From assembly GCA_026391255.1 (NCBI GenBank), contig JAPLDU010000045.1:1-35617 (forward strand): a stretch of DNA of 35,617 nucleotides, read 5' to 3'. Origin of the DNA: Bacteroidia bacterium (GTDB taxonomy: Bacteria > Bacteroidota > Bacteroidia > Bacteroidales > JAPLDU01). Positions 3,904 through 35,617 of this stretch are shown here, in pieces; positions within the stretch are counted from its first letter, which is position 1; every line of letters begins with the position of its first letter. The notes beneath the pieces are model-generated. The model did not search any database. It had not been told where the DNA came from and was given only the letters and a program-made list of their open reading frames with translations. Made by a program: the position numbers and the translations under genes.

Positions 3904-4023
3904 AAATCACAAAAAACAAATAATAAACAATATTATAATTTCAAATACGAAACAAACTACTTTGAATTTGTCATTTTGTTTATTGATATTTATTTGTTAT
4001 TTGTATTTTGAGATTTGTGATTT
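3904..4023. repeat. Imperfect long inverted repeat (AT-rich)
   Basis: The gap 3815-4073 holds no convincing gene. Its centre is an imperfect palindrome: outer arms AAATCACAAA (3904-3913) and TTTGTGATTT (4014-4023) match exactly, and related CAAATAA / TTATTTG words fill the arms. It lies between convergent genes (SGNH-like, plus; tsaC, minus), so a role as a two-way transcription terminator is possible but unproven. Confidence 0.55.
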
Positions 4024-4073
4024 CTTATGGGTTCTGGCTTGTTCAGGAAATGTAAATAGGCTGATGTCGGCGA

Positions 4074-4682
4074 TCAGATAATGCCGGCCCCTTGTCTTAT
4101 TATTTCTATTTCGCCGGATGTGCAGTCAACGATAGTAGAAGCGATGTTGGTTCCATATCCGCCGTCAATCACCAGATCAACAATATCTTCATATTTCTCG
4201 TGTATGAGTTCCGGATCTGTAATGTATTCTATCACCTCGTCGTTGTCATGGACAGAGGTTGACATGATCGGGTTCCCGAGTTCACGTACGATTGCCCTGG
4301 CAATTTCATTATCCGGAATACGTATTCCGACAGTTTTTTTATTACTTTGAAACAGCCTTGGAACCTTGTTATTTGCTTTCAGAATATAGGTAAACGGACC
4401 GGGAAGTGTTCTTCTCATCAGTTTGTATACATCATTATTTACAGGACTGGTAAAGTCGGATAAATGGCTCAGGTCGTAACAGATAAAAGAAAAATTTGCT
4501 TTTTCAGGCTTCACTCCTTTTATCCGTGCCACTCTTTCCACAGCTTTCTGATTATTTATATCACAACCAATCCCATACACAGTGTCAGTGGGATATATAA
4601 TAACACCGCCTCTGCGCAATATATCCACCACCTTTTCAATGTCTTTTGCATTGGGGTTTTCAGGATAGATTCTGATCAGCAT
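4074..4682 (-). CDS. tsaC: L-threonylcarbamoyladenylate synthase (YrdC/Sua5 family), 202 aa
   Basis: Makes threonylcarbamoyl-AMP from threonine, bicarbonate and ATP, the first step of t6A37 modification of ANN-decoding tRNAs in the cytoplasm. The whole protein is one YrdC domain: GGVIIYPTDTVYGIGCDI near the N-terminus, the RIKGVKPEKANFSFIC nucleotide-binding stretch, LPGPFTYILKA, VGIRIPDN, and PIMSTSVHDND. The length matches the short TsaC form without the Sua5 C-terminal domain. It starts at ATG 4682. A heptamer array lies directly upstream (4711-4820), so no clear promoter is visible. The downstream neighbour is convergent. Confidence 0.92.
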   Translation of the reverse strand: MLIRIYPENPNAKDIEKVVDILRRGGVIIYPTDTVYGIGCDINNQKAVERVARIKGVKPEKANFSFICYDLSHLSDFTSPVNNDVYKLMRRTLPGPFTYILKANNKVPRLFQSNKKTVGIRIPDNEIARAIVRELGNPIMSTSVHDNDEVIEYITDPELIHEKYEDIVDLVIDGGYGTNIASTIVDCTSGEIEIIRQGAGII

Positions 4683-4710
4683 AAGTCAGTCGTTATTCGT
4701 AAGTACCAGT

Positions 4711-4820
4711 GATGAGTGATGAGTGATGAGTTATGAGTTATGAGTTATGAGTTATGAGTTATGAGTTATGAGTTATGAGTTATGAGTTATGAGTTATGAG
4801 TTATGAGTTATGAGTTATGA
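4711..4820. repeat. Heptamer tandem array (GATGAGT x3, TATGAGT x12)
   Basis: Fifteen perfectly phased 7-base units (4711-4815) plus a partial unit, with only one base differing between the two unit versions. Because 7 is not a multiple of 3, TGA appears in every forward frame and TAA in every reverse frame, so the array is closed to translation in all six frames. It lies between fsa and tsaC. Confidence 0.97.
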
Positions 4821-4842
4821 ATATTGACTAGCTTCATTTCGT

Positions 4843-4882
4843 TCGCCTCGTCGCTTTGTCCCTTCGTCTCTCAGTCACTTCG
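4843..4882. repeat. Octamer word array, copy 1 (TCGCCTCG-type)
   Basis: Five consecutive 8-base words: TCGCCTCG, TCGCTTTG, TCCCTTCG, TCTCTCAG, TCACTTCG. The same word series, diverged, occurs at 10774-10830. TGCCTG words follow up to the 3' end of the transaldolase gene (stop at 4912). Confidence 0.75.
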
Positions 4883-4911
4883 TCATCATTCCACTTATGC
4901 CTGCTGCCTGA

Positions 4912-5568
4912 TTACTGGCAGGATTTTTTGTAGTCAGACATGAATTTTTCGATACCTGAATCGGTAAGCGGATGGTTGAGCAGACCGAGTATTGGAGCTA
5001 ATGGAGAAGTGATGACATCGGCCCCTGCTTCAACGCATTGCAAAATATGCATGGTGTGACGTATTGAAGCAGCAAGTACCAGGGTTTCATAACCATAATA
5101 ATTGTACATATCAGAAATTTTGGCAATCAGTTCAATACCATCAGATGCAATATCATCTAACCTGCCGATAAAAGAGGAAACATAGGTAGCTCCTGCCTTG
5201 GCAGCAAGTAAGGCCTGACCGGGTGAGAATACCAGTGTGCAGTTGGTTTTAATGCCTTTTCCCGATAGGTATTTTATAGCTTTAATCCCGTCTTTTGTAC
5301 AGGGGACTTTTACCACAATTTGTGGATGCAACGCTGAAAGCTTCTCCCCTTCCCTGATCATTCCGTCAAAATTCAATGATATCACCTCGGCGCTTACATC
5401 TCCTTGAACGATTTCACATATCTTTTTATAATGATCCAGAATGTTCTGTTCACCTCTGATGCCTTCTTTTGCCATTAAAGACGGATTGGTGGTCACACCA
5501 TCAAGAATGCCAAGATCCTGTGCTTCCTTTATCTGGTCAATATTGGCTGTGTCAATGAAGAATTTCAT
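4912..5568 (-). CDS. fsa: Fructose-6-phosphate aldolase / transaldolase-like protein, 218 aa
   Basis: Class I aldolase of the small transaldolase (TalC/FSA) subfamily. It either transfers dihydroxyacetone units in the pentose phosphate pathway or cleaves fructose-6-phosphate. The motif order is FFIDTAN (Asp6), GVTTNPSLMAKEG, the Schiff-base lysine in VVKVPCT (Lys87), NCTLVFSPGQALLAAKAGA, SSFIGRLDD, and ITSPLAPILGLLNHPLTDSG. Its length of about 220 residues is that of the single-domain decamer-forming subfamily. It starts at ATG 5568; a Bacteroidetes -7 box lies about 24-31 bases upstream. The gene ends at a TGCCTG repeat tract. Sequence alone does not separate transaldolase from F6P aldolase activity. 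Confidence 0.92.
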   Translation of the reverse strand: MKFFIDTANIDQIKEAQDLGILDGVTTNPSLMAKEGIRGEQNILDHYKKICEIVQGDVSAEVISLNFDGMIREGEKLSALHPQIVVKVPCTKDGIKAIKYLSGKGIKTNCTLVFSPGQALLAAKAGATYVSSFIGRLDDIASDGIELIAKISDMYNYYGYETLVLAASIRHTMHILQCVEAGADVITSPLAPILGLLNHPLTDSGIEKFMSDYKKSCQ

Positions 5569-5591
5569 GATTGCTGATTATTAAAAACAGG

Positions 5592-5599
5592 CAAAAATA
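5592..5599 (-). promoter_or_regulatory. Predicted -7 box for fsa
   Basis: The minus strand reads TATTTTTG followed by C, matching the Bacteroidetes -7 consensus TAnnTTTGY. It lies about 25 bases upstream of the fsa start codon. A weak TTG is present about 22 bases further upstream. Prediction from motif only. Confidence 0.5.
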
Positions 5600-5646
5600 A
5601 TCATTTGGATTGAGATAATTTCAATGTCTATCTGGCAAAATAAAAA

Positions 5647-5744
5647 GGGTAAGCACATTACATCGCACCGCTCAACCGCTTGCCCTTGCTTCCTTCCAGA
5701 CCTGGGGGAGTTCGGCGGGAGCTGGTCGTATAAGGCTTACCCCC
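5647..5744 (-). ncRNA. ffs: Small signal recognition particle RNA (4.5S type)
   Basis: RNA component of the SRP, which binds Ffh and targets nascent membrane and exported proteins. On the minus strand the molecule runs GGGGTAAGCC to GTGCTTACCC, so its ends pair into a closing stem. The centre has the universal helix-8 sequence CAGGTCTGGAAGGAAGCA, with the GGAA tetraloop and the Ffh-binding internal loop. The length of about 98 bases fits the bacterial small SRP RNA. A T-rich run follows the 3' end (5641-5646 on the complementary strand). It has its own promoter immediately upstream (5747-5776). Ends are accurate to a few bases. Confidence 0.95.
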
Positions 5745-5746
5745 TG

Positions 5747-5776
5747 CAAAAATACTAAAAAACTGATTCTTCCAAA
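5747..5776 (-). promoter_or_regulatory. Promoter of the SRP RNA gene
   Basis: On the minus strand, TTTG (5773-5776), an 18-base spacer, then TATTTTTG (5747-5754) followed by C. This is close to the Bacteroidetes consensus TTTG-N19-TAnnTTTGY. The -7 box ends 2-3 bases before the RNA's predicted 5' end at 5744, the geometry expected if transcription starts at the mature RNA. Confidence 0.7.
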
Positions 5777-6554: not shown

Positions 6555-6624
6555 GAGTTACGAGTTACGAATTACGAATTACGAATTATGACTTATGACT
6601 TATGACTTATGACTTATGACTTTT
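6555..6624. repeat. Heptamer array, ten phased units (GAGTTAC / GAATTAC / GACTTAT)
   Basis: Ten consecutive 7-base units without a phase break: GAGTTAC x2, GAATTAC x2, GAATTAT, GACTTAT x4, GACTTTT. The unit drifts stepwise along the array. It occupies most of the gap between DUF4199 and the first glycosyltransferase. Confidence 0.95.
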
Positions 6625-10666: not shown

Positions 10667-10692
10667 AATCAATTGCTTTTGAAAATTATCAG

Positions 10693-10764
10693 TTCATAAA
10701 GCTTGTAAAGTTCGTAAAGTTCATAAAATTCATAAAGTTTGTAAAGTTCATAAAGTTCATAAAG
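10693..10764. repeat. Nonamer tandem array (TTCATAAAG type), eight units
   Basis: Eight phased 9-base units: TTCATAAAG, CTTGTAAAG, TTCGTAAAG, TTCATAAAA, TTCATAAAG, TTTGTAAAG, TTCATAAAG, TTCATAAAG. The same nonamer occurs in at least seven other gaps of this window on both strands. It lies in the 307-base gap between recF and the TPR gene, with the octamer array after it. Confidence 0.95.
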
Positions 10765-10773
10765 TTATAACCA

Positions 10774-14845: not shown

Positions 14846-14920
14846 GGCATTAGGCACTAGGCACTAGTGACAAGACAATTTGAAAATGAGACAATTTGAA
14901 AATTTGAAAATGCTTTAAAT
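14846..14920. repeat. TAGGCAC and TTTGAAAAT word tract after gcvT
   Basis: Directly after the gcvT stop: ATTAGGCACTAGGCACTAG (period 7), then ACAATTTGAAAATGAG and ACAATTTGAAAATTTGAAAA (period about 9). The remaining bases to 15060 hold no gene that I can support. The TTTGAAAAT word also ends the dispersed element at 15061-15165 and recurs at 35540-35575. Confidence 0.75.
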
Positions 14921-15060
14921 TCAGGTTATTAATTTTGTTCAATGTTTAGTTTATGTTTCAATATTAAGTTGTCACTACACTAACAACAAATCTTTAGAAA
15001 TATATCGTTCTGATAATAGTTAGTAAAATATTATGTTCATCAAGTTATACAAAGTGCCTA

Positions 15061-15165
15061 GGTGCTTAAGACATCAAACTTACCAACATGTTGTCGCTAA
15101 TCTAATTCCAGTGAAACGGTTTAATTTTCAAATTTGCACATTTTCAAATTTTCAAATTAATTTAG
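15061..15165. repeat. Dispersed 105-base repeat, copy A (inverted partner at 19837-19942)
   Basis: Nearly identical on the opposite strand to 19837-19942. The conserved core is AACTTACCAACATGTTGTCG, then CTAATC, GTGAAACGG and a TTTTCAAATTTGCACATTTT tail. It contains the perfect palindrome CAACATGTTG. The end overlaps the last codon region of the SpoIID-like gene; its stop codon (15162-15164) lies inside the element. Confidence 0.9.
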
Positions 15166-16286
15166 TGCTTTATGATCTTTACGTTTGTATAGTAGAAACT
15201 GATAATGTCAACATAACTTTTCCCTTTTTCTGCCATTACCATGGCACCTTCCTGGCACAATCCGGCGCCATGACCATACCCCCTCCCTTTAAAGACCAAA
15301 GTGCTGTCAGTATTCGTAATGGAAAAAAAAGTCGATCTGAGTTCCCAGTCGTTCCTGATTTTTTTAAGTGGAACTGAATCGTTGCCAATGGAATAGTACT
15401 GCTTTCTCCTTGGCTGGTTAAAGCATAGCTGGCAGGGCTTCAGAGTTTCGGTATTCCTGAAACCATTATCCCTGAGATAACTAATCCATTTTCTAACTGT
15501 GATTGTTTTATCCCAGACAGCATGCGGTGATTTTAAGCAAAAACTATCACAAACTGATACCAGGTATGGTTTTGGCAAAGACCATACATCTTCGGAATTA
15601 ACTGTGTAACCACCGCAATTGGAATGAAAAGCAGCGGTGACCAGTTTATTATCCTGATCAACAATGACAAGACCTGAAGTGATCTTTGTAGCTTCTTTTA
15701 TTTCAGGCCTGAAAAAGCTCATCCCCAGGTAAACCTGGCAATGTATTCCATCGCACAACTGAAACCCTTCGTTTAAGTGACGGTCGAAATGTGCAAGCGC
15801 ATAAGTTCTGCATATGATTGCCTGGGTTTTGTAGTATTCCATGGCTGATTTTTCTCCTCCCTCCGATTCCACAACACCAGCAATGTATTCATCAATATCT
15901 GCCACATTAACAATCAGCAATTTATTTCCAAGTAAACTAATTTTAAACTCTCCTTTGTACCTTCTTGGTTCGAGAGACGGAAATACTGGTTTGATTTTCA
16001 TGCAACCGGTAGAATCAGTTTCCCTGAAATCCAAACGATCAAAATTTCCTTTCGGGATTGAATTTACTGAAACTGAAATTCTTCCGGACTTATCACTGAC
16101 AGTTACAAGATCGTTTTTTTTGATGGATATACTTTTATCATTTCCGGTAAATAATTTATATTCTCCTGAATAAATGGAAAATATTGCAGATTTTAGGTTG
16201 GAATCATTGAAAAGGCTGATGCTGACTTTCTGGGCATAAACAGAAATTGAATGATAAATAAATAAGAATATTATAATATATCTCAC
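15162..16286 (-). CDS. SpoIID/LytB-domain protein, exported, 374 aa
   Basis: Probably a periplasmic lytic transglycosylase-like protein acting on peptidoglycan. A signal peptide is visible (IIIFLFIYHSISVYA before QKV). The SpoIID domain follows: DIDEYIAGVVESEGGEKSA with the acidic residue expected to be catalytic, YYKTQAIICRTYALAH, CQVYLGM, AAFHSNCGGYTVNSEDVW, and the C-terminal GRGYGHGAGLCQEGAMVMA. Originally described in sporulators, the domain is widespread in Bacteroidetes, where its role is less clear. The start is GTG 16286, two bases after the lpxB stop, so the genes are probably co-transcribed. Its stop codon lies in a dispersed repeat. Confidence 0.9.
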   Translation of the reverse strand: MRYIIIFLFIYHSISVYAQKVSISLFNDSNLKSAIFSIYSGEYKLFTGNDKSISIKKNDLVTVSDKSGRISVSVNSIPKGNFDRLDFRETDSTGCMKIKPVFPSLEPRRYKGEFKISLLGNKLLIVNVADIDEYIAGVVESEGGEKSAMEYYKTQAIICRTYALAHFDRHLNEGFQLCDGIHCQVYLGMSFFRPEIKEATKITSGLVIVDQDNKLVTAAFHSNCGGYTVNSEDVWSLPKPYLVSVCDSFCLKSPHAVWDKTITVRKWISYLRDNGFRNTETLKPCQLCFNQPRRKQYYSIGNDSVPLKKIRNDWELRSTFFSITNTDSTLVFKGRGYGHGAGLCQEGAMVMAEKGKSYVDIISFYYTNVKIIKH

Positions 16287-19836: not shown

Positions 19837-19942
19837 CTAAATTAATTTGAAAATTTGAAAATGTGCAAATTTGAAAATTAAATCCGTTTCACGGGAATAA
19901 GATTAGCGACAACATGTTGGTAAGTTTTGTTTCCTAAGCATC
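19837..19942. repeat. Dispersed 105-base repeat, copy B (inverted relative to 15061-15165)
   Basis: The reverse complement matches copy A along its whole length with few differences, including the CAACATGTTG palindrome and the TTTGAAAATGTGCAAATTTG tail. It lies between the serA stop and the DUF1015 start. The rest of the gap (19943-20084) shows no gene or motif that I can name. Confidence 0.9.
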
Positions 19943-20084
19943 TAACTATAAAACCCATGTTCCGAAATTTTGGGGTTTTGAAAATTAAATTTCACGAATA
20001 AAAAACCACTAAATCAAAGACTGCAAAATTAACATCCGGGCAGAGATTACAAACCGGAGCTTTGACTTAGTGGCAATTTATTTT

Positions 20085-21024: not shown

Positions 21025-21101
21025 GAGTTATGAATTATGAGTGATGAGTGATGAGTGATGACTTTTGACTTATGACTTACGACTATTGACTATTGACTAT
21101 T
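21025..21101. repeat. Heptamer array, eleven phased GANNNNN units
   Basis: Eleven consecutive heptamers: GAGTTAT, GAATTAT, GAGTGAT x3, GACTTTT, GACTTAT, GACTTAC, GACTATT x3. The last GACTATT contains the stop codon (CTA, 21097-21099) of the four-helix-bundle gene read on the minus strand. The array fills the whole gap between that gene and serA. Confidence 0.95.
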
Positions 21102-21627
21102 GTAATTCCGTATTCTTCGAAAAATCCTCATCATGATCGGTATCGGTGCTATAATCACCAAAATCAGTATGAACATCTGTGTTGATATCGGCAGGTTGAT
21201 CAGAACCATGTTCGGCTAAAGAAGATGAATGGTAATCCTGGTGAGGACGGTTATTTCCTTTGCGGTTATGCAAAGAAGCAATGAAACCACTTAACATTTT
21301 TGATATTTCGAGTACTTTTACCCTCAGATCCTCTTCTTTCGCTTCATCAAGGTAATTCCTGCGCCTGGCAATAGTAGTAAAAACCAGGCAGCGCCTGATG
21401 GCATCCTTGGCATACTTAAGGTCGGAAATGAAGTCCAGCCTGCTTTTGCCTGAACCTTCAGCAATAAAAAGGGCAATGGATACAGATGAATTCCGGAAGT
21501 CAGTGACCAGCAGGTTCTCATTTTCAGGGAAATCCCTGGTACATTCAAAAACGAGATCTGAATAATCAAGAGTACGTTCATAAACCTTCAGTCCTTCAAA
21601 CCTTAGTTTTTCATTTTCAACGAACAT
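21097..21627 (-). CDS. Four-helix-bundle protein (23S rRNA intervening-sequence type) with acidic tail, 176 aa
   Basis: The first about 120 residues fit the four-helix-bundle family first seen as proteins encoded in 23S rRNA intervening sequences: LRFEGLKVYERTLDYSDLVF, SSVSIALFIAEGSGKSRLDF, SDLKYAKDAIRRCLVFTTIA and VLEISKMLSGFIASLHNRKG. After that comes a low-complexity, Asp/His/Ser-rich tail of about 50 residues (SSLAEHGSDQPADINTDVHT, then DTDHDEDFSKNTELQ). Such proteins are small and their role is unknown. Here the gene is not in an rRNA gene but between serC and serA, in the same direction. The stop codon lies in a heptamer repeat unit. The start is ATG 21627. Confidence 0.85.
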   Translation of the reverse strand: MFVENEKLRFEGLKVYERTLDYSDLVFECTRDFPENENLLVTDFRNSSVSIALFIAEGSGKSRLDFISDLKYAKDAIRRCLVFTTIARRRNYLDEAKEEDLRVKVLEISKMLSGFIASLHNRKGNNRPHQDYHSSSLAEHGSDQPADINTDVHTDFGDYSTDTDHDEDFSKNTELQ

Positions 21628-26401: not shown

Positions 26402-26524
26402 GTTCATAAAGTTTGTAAAGTTTGTAAAGTTCATAAAGTCAGTCTCAGTTTCTTATTCATTATTTCTTATTATATTTCTTATTTCTTATTTCCTATTTCT
26501 TATTTCTTATTTCTTATTTCTTAT
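26402..26524. repeat. Nonamer array followed by TTTCTTA heptamer array
   Basis: Nonamers TTCATAAAG, TTTGTAAAG x2, TTCATAAAG, then more than ten TTTCTTA-type heptamers with variants TTTCCTA and TTCATTA. The tract fills most of the 210-base gap between the divergent ComB-like and MBL-fold genes, where both promoters should lie. A near-miss -7 box (CATATTTGC) follows at about 26525-26533. Confidence 0.93.
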
Positions 26525-29752: not shown

Positions 29753-29867
29753 AGAAATACAATAGAAATACAATAGAAATAAATAGAAATACAATAGAAA
29801 TAAATAGAAATAAATAGAAATAAATAGAAATAAATAGAAATATTATTGAAATAAATAGAAATAAATG
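29753..29867. repeat. Decamer tandem array (AATAGAAATA) flanked by a 10-base direct repeat
   Basis: About eleven degenerate copies of a 10-base unit (AATAGAAATA, with ACAATAGAAA and TATTGAAATA variants). The array is bracketed by an exact direct repeat TTGTAATTCA at 29731-29740 and 29869-29878. It lies in the 367-base gap between pepD and trmN6. The remainder of the gap (29880-30049) is AT-rich with TACGAATTACGAAGTA words and no gene. Confidence 0.9.
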
Positions 29868-31550: not shown

Positions 31551-31650
31551 AAGTTCATAAAGTTCATAAAGTTATTTCTAATTTCTTATTTCCTATTTTC
31601 TAGTTCTAATTTCTTATTTCCTATTTCTAATTTCTTATTTCTTATTGCCT
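31551..31650. repeat. Nonamer plus TTTCTTA heptamer array between pepD and the M23 gene
   Basis: Nonamers TTCATAAAG x2 near 31552-31571, then heptamers of TTTCTAA, TTTCTTA, TTTCCTA and a GCCTGCCTG ending just before the M23 stop codon at 31656. The nonamer-then-TTTCTTA order is the same as at 26402-26524. Confidence 0.9.
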
Positions 31651-35539: not shown

Positions 35540-35575
35540 TGTGCAATTTGAAAATTTGAAAAATTGAAAATTTGA
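35540..35575. repeat. TTTGAAAAT word tract after alaS
   Basis: GTGCAATTTGAAAATTTGAA followed by AAATTGAAAATTTGAAG. The words match the tail of the dispersed element at 15061-15165 and 19837-19942 and the tract at 14877-14918. The window ends 42 bases later. Confidence 0.75.
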
Positions 35576-35617
35576 AGATAGAGTTCACTCCGGAAAGTTA
35601 ATTTTATAAAATATCCT

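Follow-up and report, generated by a model that had tools for sequence, protein, structure and literature searches.

The window analysed here, a 35,617-nt stretch (C117) of a draft Bacteroidales genome (G000; 4,082,173 bases in 161 contigs, 97.5% complete), carries two copies of a short, gene-free repeat in opposite orientations (Table 1). The first overlaps the end of the minus-strand ORF 15162-16286, presumably SpoIID-like as named in the first-pass annotation, and the TAA stop codon of this ORF is supplied by the terminal CTAAA of the element. The second stops 28 nt ahead of the ATG (19808) of the next ORF, which we take from the same source to be DUF1015. Both gene contacts had been pointed out in that annotation, as had the near identity of the inverted pair, and the alignment agreed: the copies share 93% identity across query bases 3-105 (40 of 272 candidates were scored in this search, its matches being a lower bound), and 19837-19882 is 100% complementary to 15120-15165. 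The positions first given stand except at the head, which is two bases longer and takes in a terminal TAG. Furthermore, CAACATGTTGTCGC with ≤2 mismatches had two matches, both exact (0.15 expected from shuffles), and CAAATTTGCACATTTTCAAATTTTCAAATT with ≤3 mismatches had three (0 expected).

Table 1 Features of the two element copies in the window
Feature	Position	Strand	Remark
Miniature element copy 1 (type A), head to tail	15059..15165	+	its 3' end is the left end in gene orientation
Copy 1 head, right end (RE) of gene-bearing element	15059..15102	+	terminal TAG-GTG-CTTAAG to CGCTAATC
Palindrome CAACATGTTG	15084..15093	.	varied forms recur in KA25, G222, M. riyadhense and L180 ends
Hairpin II	15108..15119	+	CCaGTGAAACGG in copy 1, imperfect; CCCGTGAAACGG in most copies
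Hairpin I, from AT-rich 8-mer repeat	15121..15160	-	single-strand DNA fold
Copy 1 left terminus CTAAA	15161..15165	-	TTTAG on +; source of the stop codon
Copy 1 target flank TGCTT	15166..15170	+	fits TAG-NNNCT
Miniature element copy 2	19837..19944	-	post-tail flank GATTT, no fit to CT at +4/+5
Copy 2 head (RE)	19901..19944	-	
Copy 2 left terminus CTAAA	19837..19841	+	ahead of downstream ATG

The repeat family in the draft genome

Genome-wide, a 20-nt core with ≤3 mismatches was found 59 times, against 0 for a reversed-pattern control, and a profile made from the copies scored above 60 bits at 62 places when run on 544,986 bases, which comprised 53 fetched stretches and the window. The search for further copies proposed in the first-pass annotation therefore yielded far more than two, with 62 full copies. 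Their consensus, built from 61 measured copies, is 109 nt long and runs from TTAG to TTTAG, with a median identity of 92% (range 81-100%). Because one copy (L070:1877) has no clear tail, all flank counts use 61 of the 62. The 62 copies are dispersed with unrelated flanks, and their ends, defined over 61, are sharp. A simple ORF caller put every one of the 62 in an intergenic position or at the edge of a gene; 59 gaps could be classified, comprising 42 co-directional, 10 divergent and 7 convergent ones, and the orientation of copies relative to co-directional genes was mixed (18 same, 24 opposite). Membership of a known RNA family, which according to the first-pass annotation would have refuted its reading, was not seen: no Rfam family matched the element at the gathering score. 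The sole Rfam match in the window was a Bacteroidales small SRP RNA (RF04183) on the minus strand at 5643-5749.

A longer sister, which we call type B, has the head of the elements described above (type A), a different inside and an end mostly like GGGCTTTTTTC...TGAAAAATTTAG. With a 121-nt query from composite copies it was found over at least 100 nt in at least 14 places in the draft genome, a lower bound as 40 of 137 candidates were scored. In at least four places (L081, L116, L095 and L070) it sits directly before a type A copy or head. In addition, 10 of the 62 type A copies (L075, L071, L083, L120, L095, L070, L103, L086, L112 and L114) have, in place of TT within their TTTTCAAA units, a nested 14-nt palindrome of the CCGCCTCAGGCGGA type, which also occurs in some type B copies; it is a second, tiny dispersed repeat.

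The tail exists apart from the head as well. Tail-only (TTTTCAAA)n-like arrays lie at 14877-14911 and 35545-35576 of the window, and the tail alone matched in 8 of 40 relatives from the order, from query base 50 onward among the matches listed, with up to 21 candidates scored per genome. Further intergenic arrays of 7-10-nt units (ATCACATT, AGTTATG, TTACGAA, AGTTCATAA, TTTCTTA and others) occur in the window at 2152-2217, 4708-4820, 6558-6622, 10691-10770, 26449-26524, 29753-29866 and 31572-31646, and several element copies are inserted beside arrays of this kind. A 7-nt repeat array adjoins the minus-strand ORF 21097-21627, which we take from its look to be a four-helix bundle of the 23S rRNA intervening-sequence type.

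Gene-bearing relatives and their ends

Among 84,980 named genomes, of which the draft genome itself is perhaps not one, the exact 20-nt core was present in one stretch only, a 5.8-kb contig of 'Bacteroidales bacterium isolate KA25', and this was the sole match at ≤3 mismatches in the KA25 genome. Here a 543-aa ORF has its stop codon directly before the head, and 42 of 45 bases agree with the consensus head. Since these 5.8 kb come from a draft genome derived from a metagenome, the host of the KA25 element is uncertain, which we count against the transposon reading proposed below. Another genome of the same order, G222, contains a full 1.75-kb element whose ORF is related to that of KA25 (55-58%) and whose right end matches the consensus head at 37 of 45 bases. 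The head is thus conserved in relatives, contrary to the outcome that the first-pass annotation had named as refuting. Its description of the repeat as a dispersed, gene-free element that, if mobile, depends on factors from elsewhere is supported, and mobility is probable. The draft genome itself yielded no gene-bearing copy and no protein homologue, either with a single protein or with a 15-row profile; this too counts against the transposon reading.

Relatives were also found on a plasmid and a viral contig. A Mycobacterium riyadhense plasmid has three related units that share a block from CTACG to TAG or near it and differ in the sequence outside; the proteins of two of these units are 97% alike. 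Two family members, 21-28% alike, are adjacent on this plasmid (L165 1236-2852 and 2995-4656). Another member with a recognizable right end is located at 4001-5650 of a 35-kb IMG/VR contig (L180), and phage-like DNA may therefore carry the protein family; the 20-nt core was not found in viral contigs. Searching with the head in nhmmer matched L121 (1.6e-10) and L153 (9.6e-7) and gave no match in L154, L165 or L180. A hand-written right-end pattern matched 3 of the 10 loci given and none of 20 single-base shuffles, and right ends outside these three were read by eye. Alignment with the KA25 end failed for L180 (8/43) and reached 30/45 with gaps for M. riyadhense, and the right-end resemblance of these two rests on the palindrome and the terminal bases.

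The gene-bearing relatives share a common design of their ends. At the right end, a CAACATGTTG-like palindrome occurs with a terminal AAGCGNCTA-like sequence, L180 included. The left end, in gene orientation, consists of CTACG (CTAAA in the draft genome), hairpin I of about 6-14 bp and hairpin II of 3-4 bp, and this arrangement was seen in KA25, G222, M. riyadhense, one type B copy and the type A consensus. Compared with shuffled sequences, the folds had z scores of -3.89 (KA25), -1.80 (G222), -5.25 (M. riyadhense), -1.18 (type B) and -2.89 (type A consensus), and the whole window copy had -1.56; with the weak values for G222, type B and the window copy, not every case is significant alone, which again counts against the transposon reading. 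The 105-mer retains the full-length design, namely the 5-nt terminus, two hairpins and the palindrome. Given this design, the (TTTTCAAA)n tail makes up the stem of hairpin I, and GTGAAACGG falls within hairpin II. The first-pass annotation had read the palindrome and GTGAAACGG together as a recognition site. For the palindrome this is likely, since it recurs with the terminal sequence at the right end of relatives. For GTGAAACGG as a core of its own it does not hold, as these bases belong to a small stem-loop (CCGTGAAACGG in the consensus) whose stem is imperfect in the window copy. No long terminal inverted repeat was found; the ends share only TAG, as direct repeats.

Homologues of the partner protein were detected in 11 of 393 genomes of the order, in 15 records out of 72,556 from plasmids (nine of Rhodococcus, two of Paraburkholderia and four of other origin), in two IMG/VR viral contigs and in none of 50,697 phage records. 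Those that carry an annotation in the plasmid records inspected are named hypothetical proteins or, once, an ArsR family regulator. Searches of Pfam, NCBIfam, PHROGs and PDB sequences with the KA25 protein gave nothing significant. When 15 members were scanned against Pfam and NCBIfam, the C-terminus matched winged-helix regulators and other matches were scattered and weak; no Y1_Tnp (HUH) match was found for the KA25 query or the 15 aligned proteins, and no DEDD/Tnp_20 match was listed for the partner proteins. All matches in a PDB profile search had E >0.06 and were mostly to MarR proteins. AlphaFold2 with a three-row alignment gave models of low confidence (mean pLDDT 50.6 for the whole protein and 40.9 for residues 1-395). 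In the first weak model, Foldseek and VIA-align matches fell mostly in the winged helix (residues 403-525), including the best VIA-align match listed (1stz_B, Z 11.7, rmsd 2.1 over 84 residues). Only the C-terminal winged helix, then, resembles known families. Invariant residues include N173, G174, Q252, E254, K331, Y333, K335, R341 and E343, and the motif K-x-Y-x-K...LR-x-E is found in 15 of 15 aligned proteins. The open-access literature, which does not cover ISfinder, where an entry is possible, contained no description of this protein or transposon family that we could find.

Junctions and target site

Of 61 copies, 43 have an exact TAG on the left and 42 on the right; only 32 have it on both sides, a further count against the transposon reading. 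Past the right TAG, C stands at +4 in 47 of 61 and T at +5 in 54 of 61; the two occur together as CT in 41 of 61 type A copies, compared with 90 of 1281 positions further out (7%). CT was also present in 8 of 10 type B junctions, once a spurious minus-strand regex row (L133) had been excluded and the L145 junction had been set one base ahead of where the regex cut. The flanks of KA25 (TAACT) and G222 (ATACT) fit the same target. CT is missing at window copy 2 and at the three M. riyadhense sites, and we count the latter against the transposon reading. The flanking duplications that the first-pass annotation proposed to look for gave no signal over 61 flank pairs, the best position pair having z 2.76 of about 1,500 tested, with no run.

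The G222 element interrupts a reading frame. Joining its flanks gives an uninterrupted frame of 261-262 aa, consistent with an overlap of either 0 or 3 nt; both preserve the frame, and the comparison is therefore blind to the choice between them. Inspection of the KA25 flanks by eye gave no reading as one gene. An empty site is seen in KA25 for the one of the two window sites that was examined: the gap leading to the last gene measures about 43 nt and lacks the element, compared with 276 nt in the window, and the neighbours are in the same order (genes that we take to be phosphoserine aminotransferase-like, phosphoglycerate dehydrogenase-like and DUF1015-like).

Proposed mode of movement and comparison with known systems

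With dispersed copies, the ends of a gene-bearing element and an empty site in a relative, the element is a MITE in the wide sense. A classical MITE was rejected, since there are no long terminal inverted repeats and no target duplication. It is well supported that the ends belong to the family of ~540-aa proteins and that the repeat is a non-autonomous transposable element. Our main reading, to which we assign a probability of roughly 0.8, sees in the 105-mer a miniature, non-autonomous copy from a transposon family encoding one protein of ~500-560 aa with a C-terminal winged helix. The miniature would have kept both ends, that is, TAG-GCG-CTTAAG followed by CAACATGTTG on the right, and the 5-nt CTAAA or CTACG, hairpin I and the small hairpin II on the left. 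The protein of a relative, lost from the draft genome or missed in its assembly, may have recognized the palindrome and the hairpin ends and cut beside TAG at both ends, and the element would then have been rejoined at TAG-NNNCT, overlapping by no more than ~3 nt.

For the chemistry of this transposition, our first choice, at about even odds, is a single-strand nickase, favoured by the unlike, hairpin-bearing ends and the conserved K-x-Y-x-K...LR-x-E motif. The same transposon family could instead encode a double-strand site-specific recombinase, with a circular junction whose RE (TAG-GCG-CTT) swaps strands with the target (TAG-NNN-CTT) in the common TAG core, as in IS110-like elements. The TAG at both ends, the resemblance of target to RE, the overlap of 0 or 3 nt and the type B copies placed exactly before type A heads would all suit such an enzyme; strong hairpins 5 nt from one end only would be needless for it, however, and no known recombinase family matches the protein, so that we regard this as possible but rather unlikely. 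Explanations outside the family fare worse. The draft genome has four Y1_Tnp genes, and REPs are hairpins that bear a short tag at one end (PMC3733652), which could suggest that one of these Y1 (RAYT-like) tyrosine transposases mobilizes the repeat as a REP-like element. However, the head is missing from the locus fetched (2.1-3.3 kb) for each of the four, one of which has a tail-only repeat nearby, and the head is the end of a different gene-bearing element in KA25 and G222; we thus consider this very improbable. Still less credible is a structural RNA or regulatory repeat held by selection and not mobile: the location of all copies between or at the edges of genes and their stem-loops would accord with it, but mixed orientation, sharp ends with unrelated flanks, the KA25 orthologous gap without the element, the lack of an Rfam family and a head common to a gene-bearing element all argue the other way. 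An integron attC site and a SINE-like 3' tail were considered only, and then set aside.

Returning to the transposon family, the large protein of the full-length relatives fits no known transposase family, and this kind of mobile DNA is therefore apparently undescribed; judged by the named profile libraries and the literature, ISfinder aside, the family appears to be so. The chances are evenly balanced that the ~540-aa proteins form a new prokaryotic class of transposases, found in Bacteroidota, Actinomycetota, Pseudomonadota and viral contigs, which insert at TAG-NNNCT via a hairpin-bearing end and have spread the miniature family of the window. If they are transposases, a mobile-element family of several phyla has been overlooked, one that is open to experiment with a defined substrate of 109 nt. 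Genome engineers would also take an interest in a target made of a 3-nt core and three free bases. In the window genome, the element accounts for about sixty intergenic repeats and the insertion-derived stop codon of one gene.

IS200/IS605 elements have subterminal hairpins, no long target duplication, a short fixed target and a transposase of ~150 aa. Our element shares the first three properties and differs in its partner protein, which has ~540 aa and lacks a Y1_Tnp domain. IS110-like elements have a short core common to both ends and target; unlike them, the element combines a 3-nt TAG core with a hairpin end and an unrelated protein. In Rep_trans/MOBT nickases, a catalytic Tyr is followed two residues on by a Lys and accompanied by acidic residues (D72, D177, Y252; PMC6499999). 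The partner protein has a similar spacing (D150, E254, Y333, with a Lys two residues past the Tyr), whereas its Arg-x-Glu follows the Tyr far more closely, and no profile-level similarity to six Rep proteins was detected, hhalign scores with these small alignments not exceeding column-shuffled controls. The sequences thus lend no support to a Rep_trans link beyond the motif. For REP elements with RAYT, a single-strand mechanism has been proposed (PMC3733652), and a hairpin that bears a short unpaired tag at one end is common to both; our element is longer (105-109 nt), has a long second end, carries its tag (CTAAA/CTACG) 5' of the hairpin in place of GTAG, and has a partner protein unrelated in size and sequence. 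Finally, BrickBuilt of Porphyromonas gingivalis (PMC4596501) is a MITE that is short, gene-free, intergenic and multi-copy with an internal tandem repeat, all of which holds for our element too. Unlike bacterial MITEs such as BrickBuilt, it has dissimilar ends and a putative mobilizer that belongs to no known transposase family.
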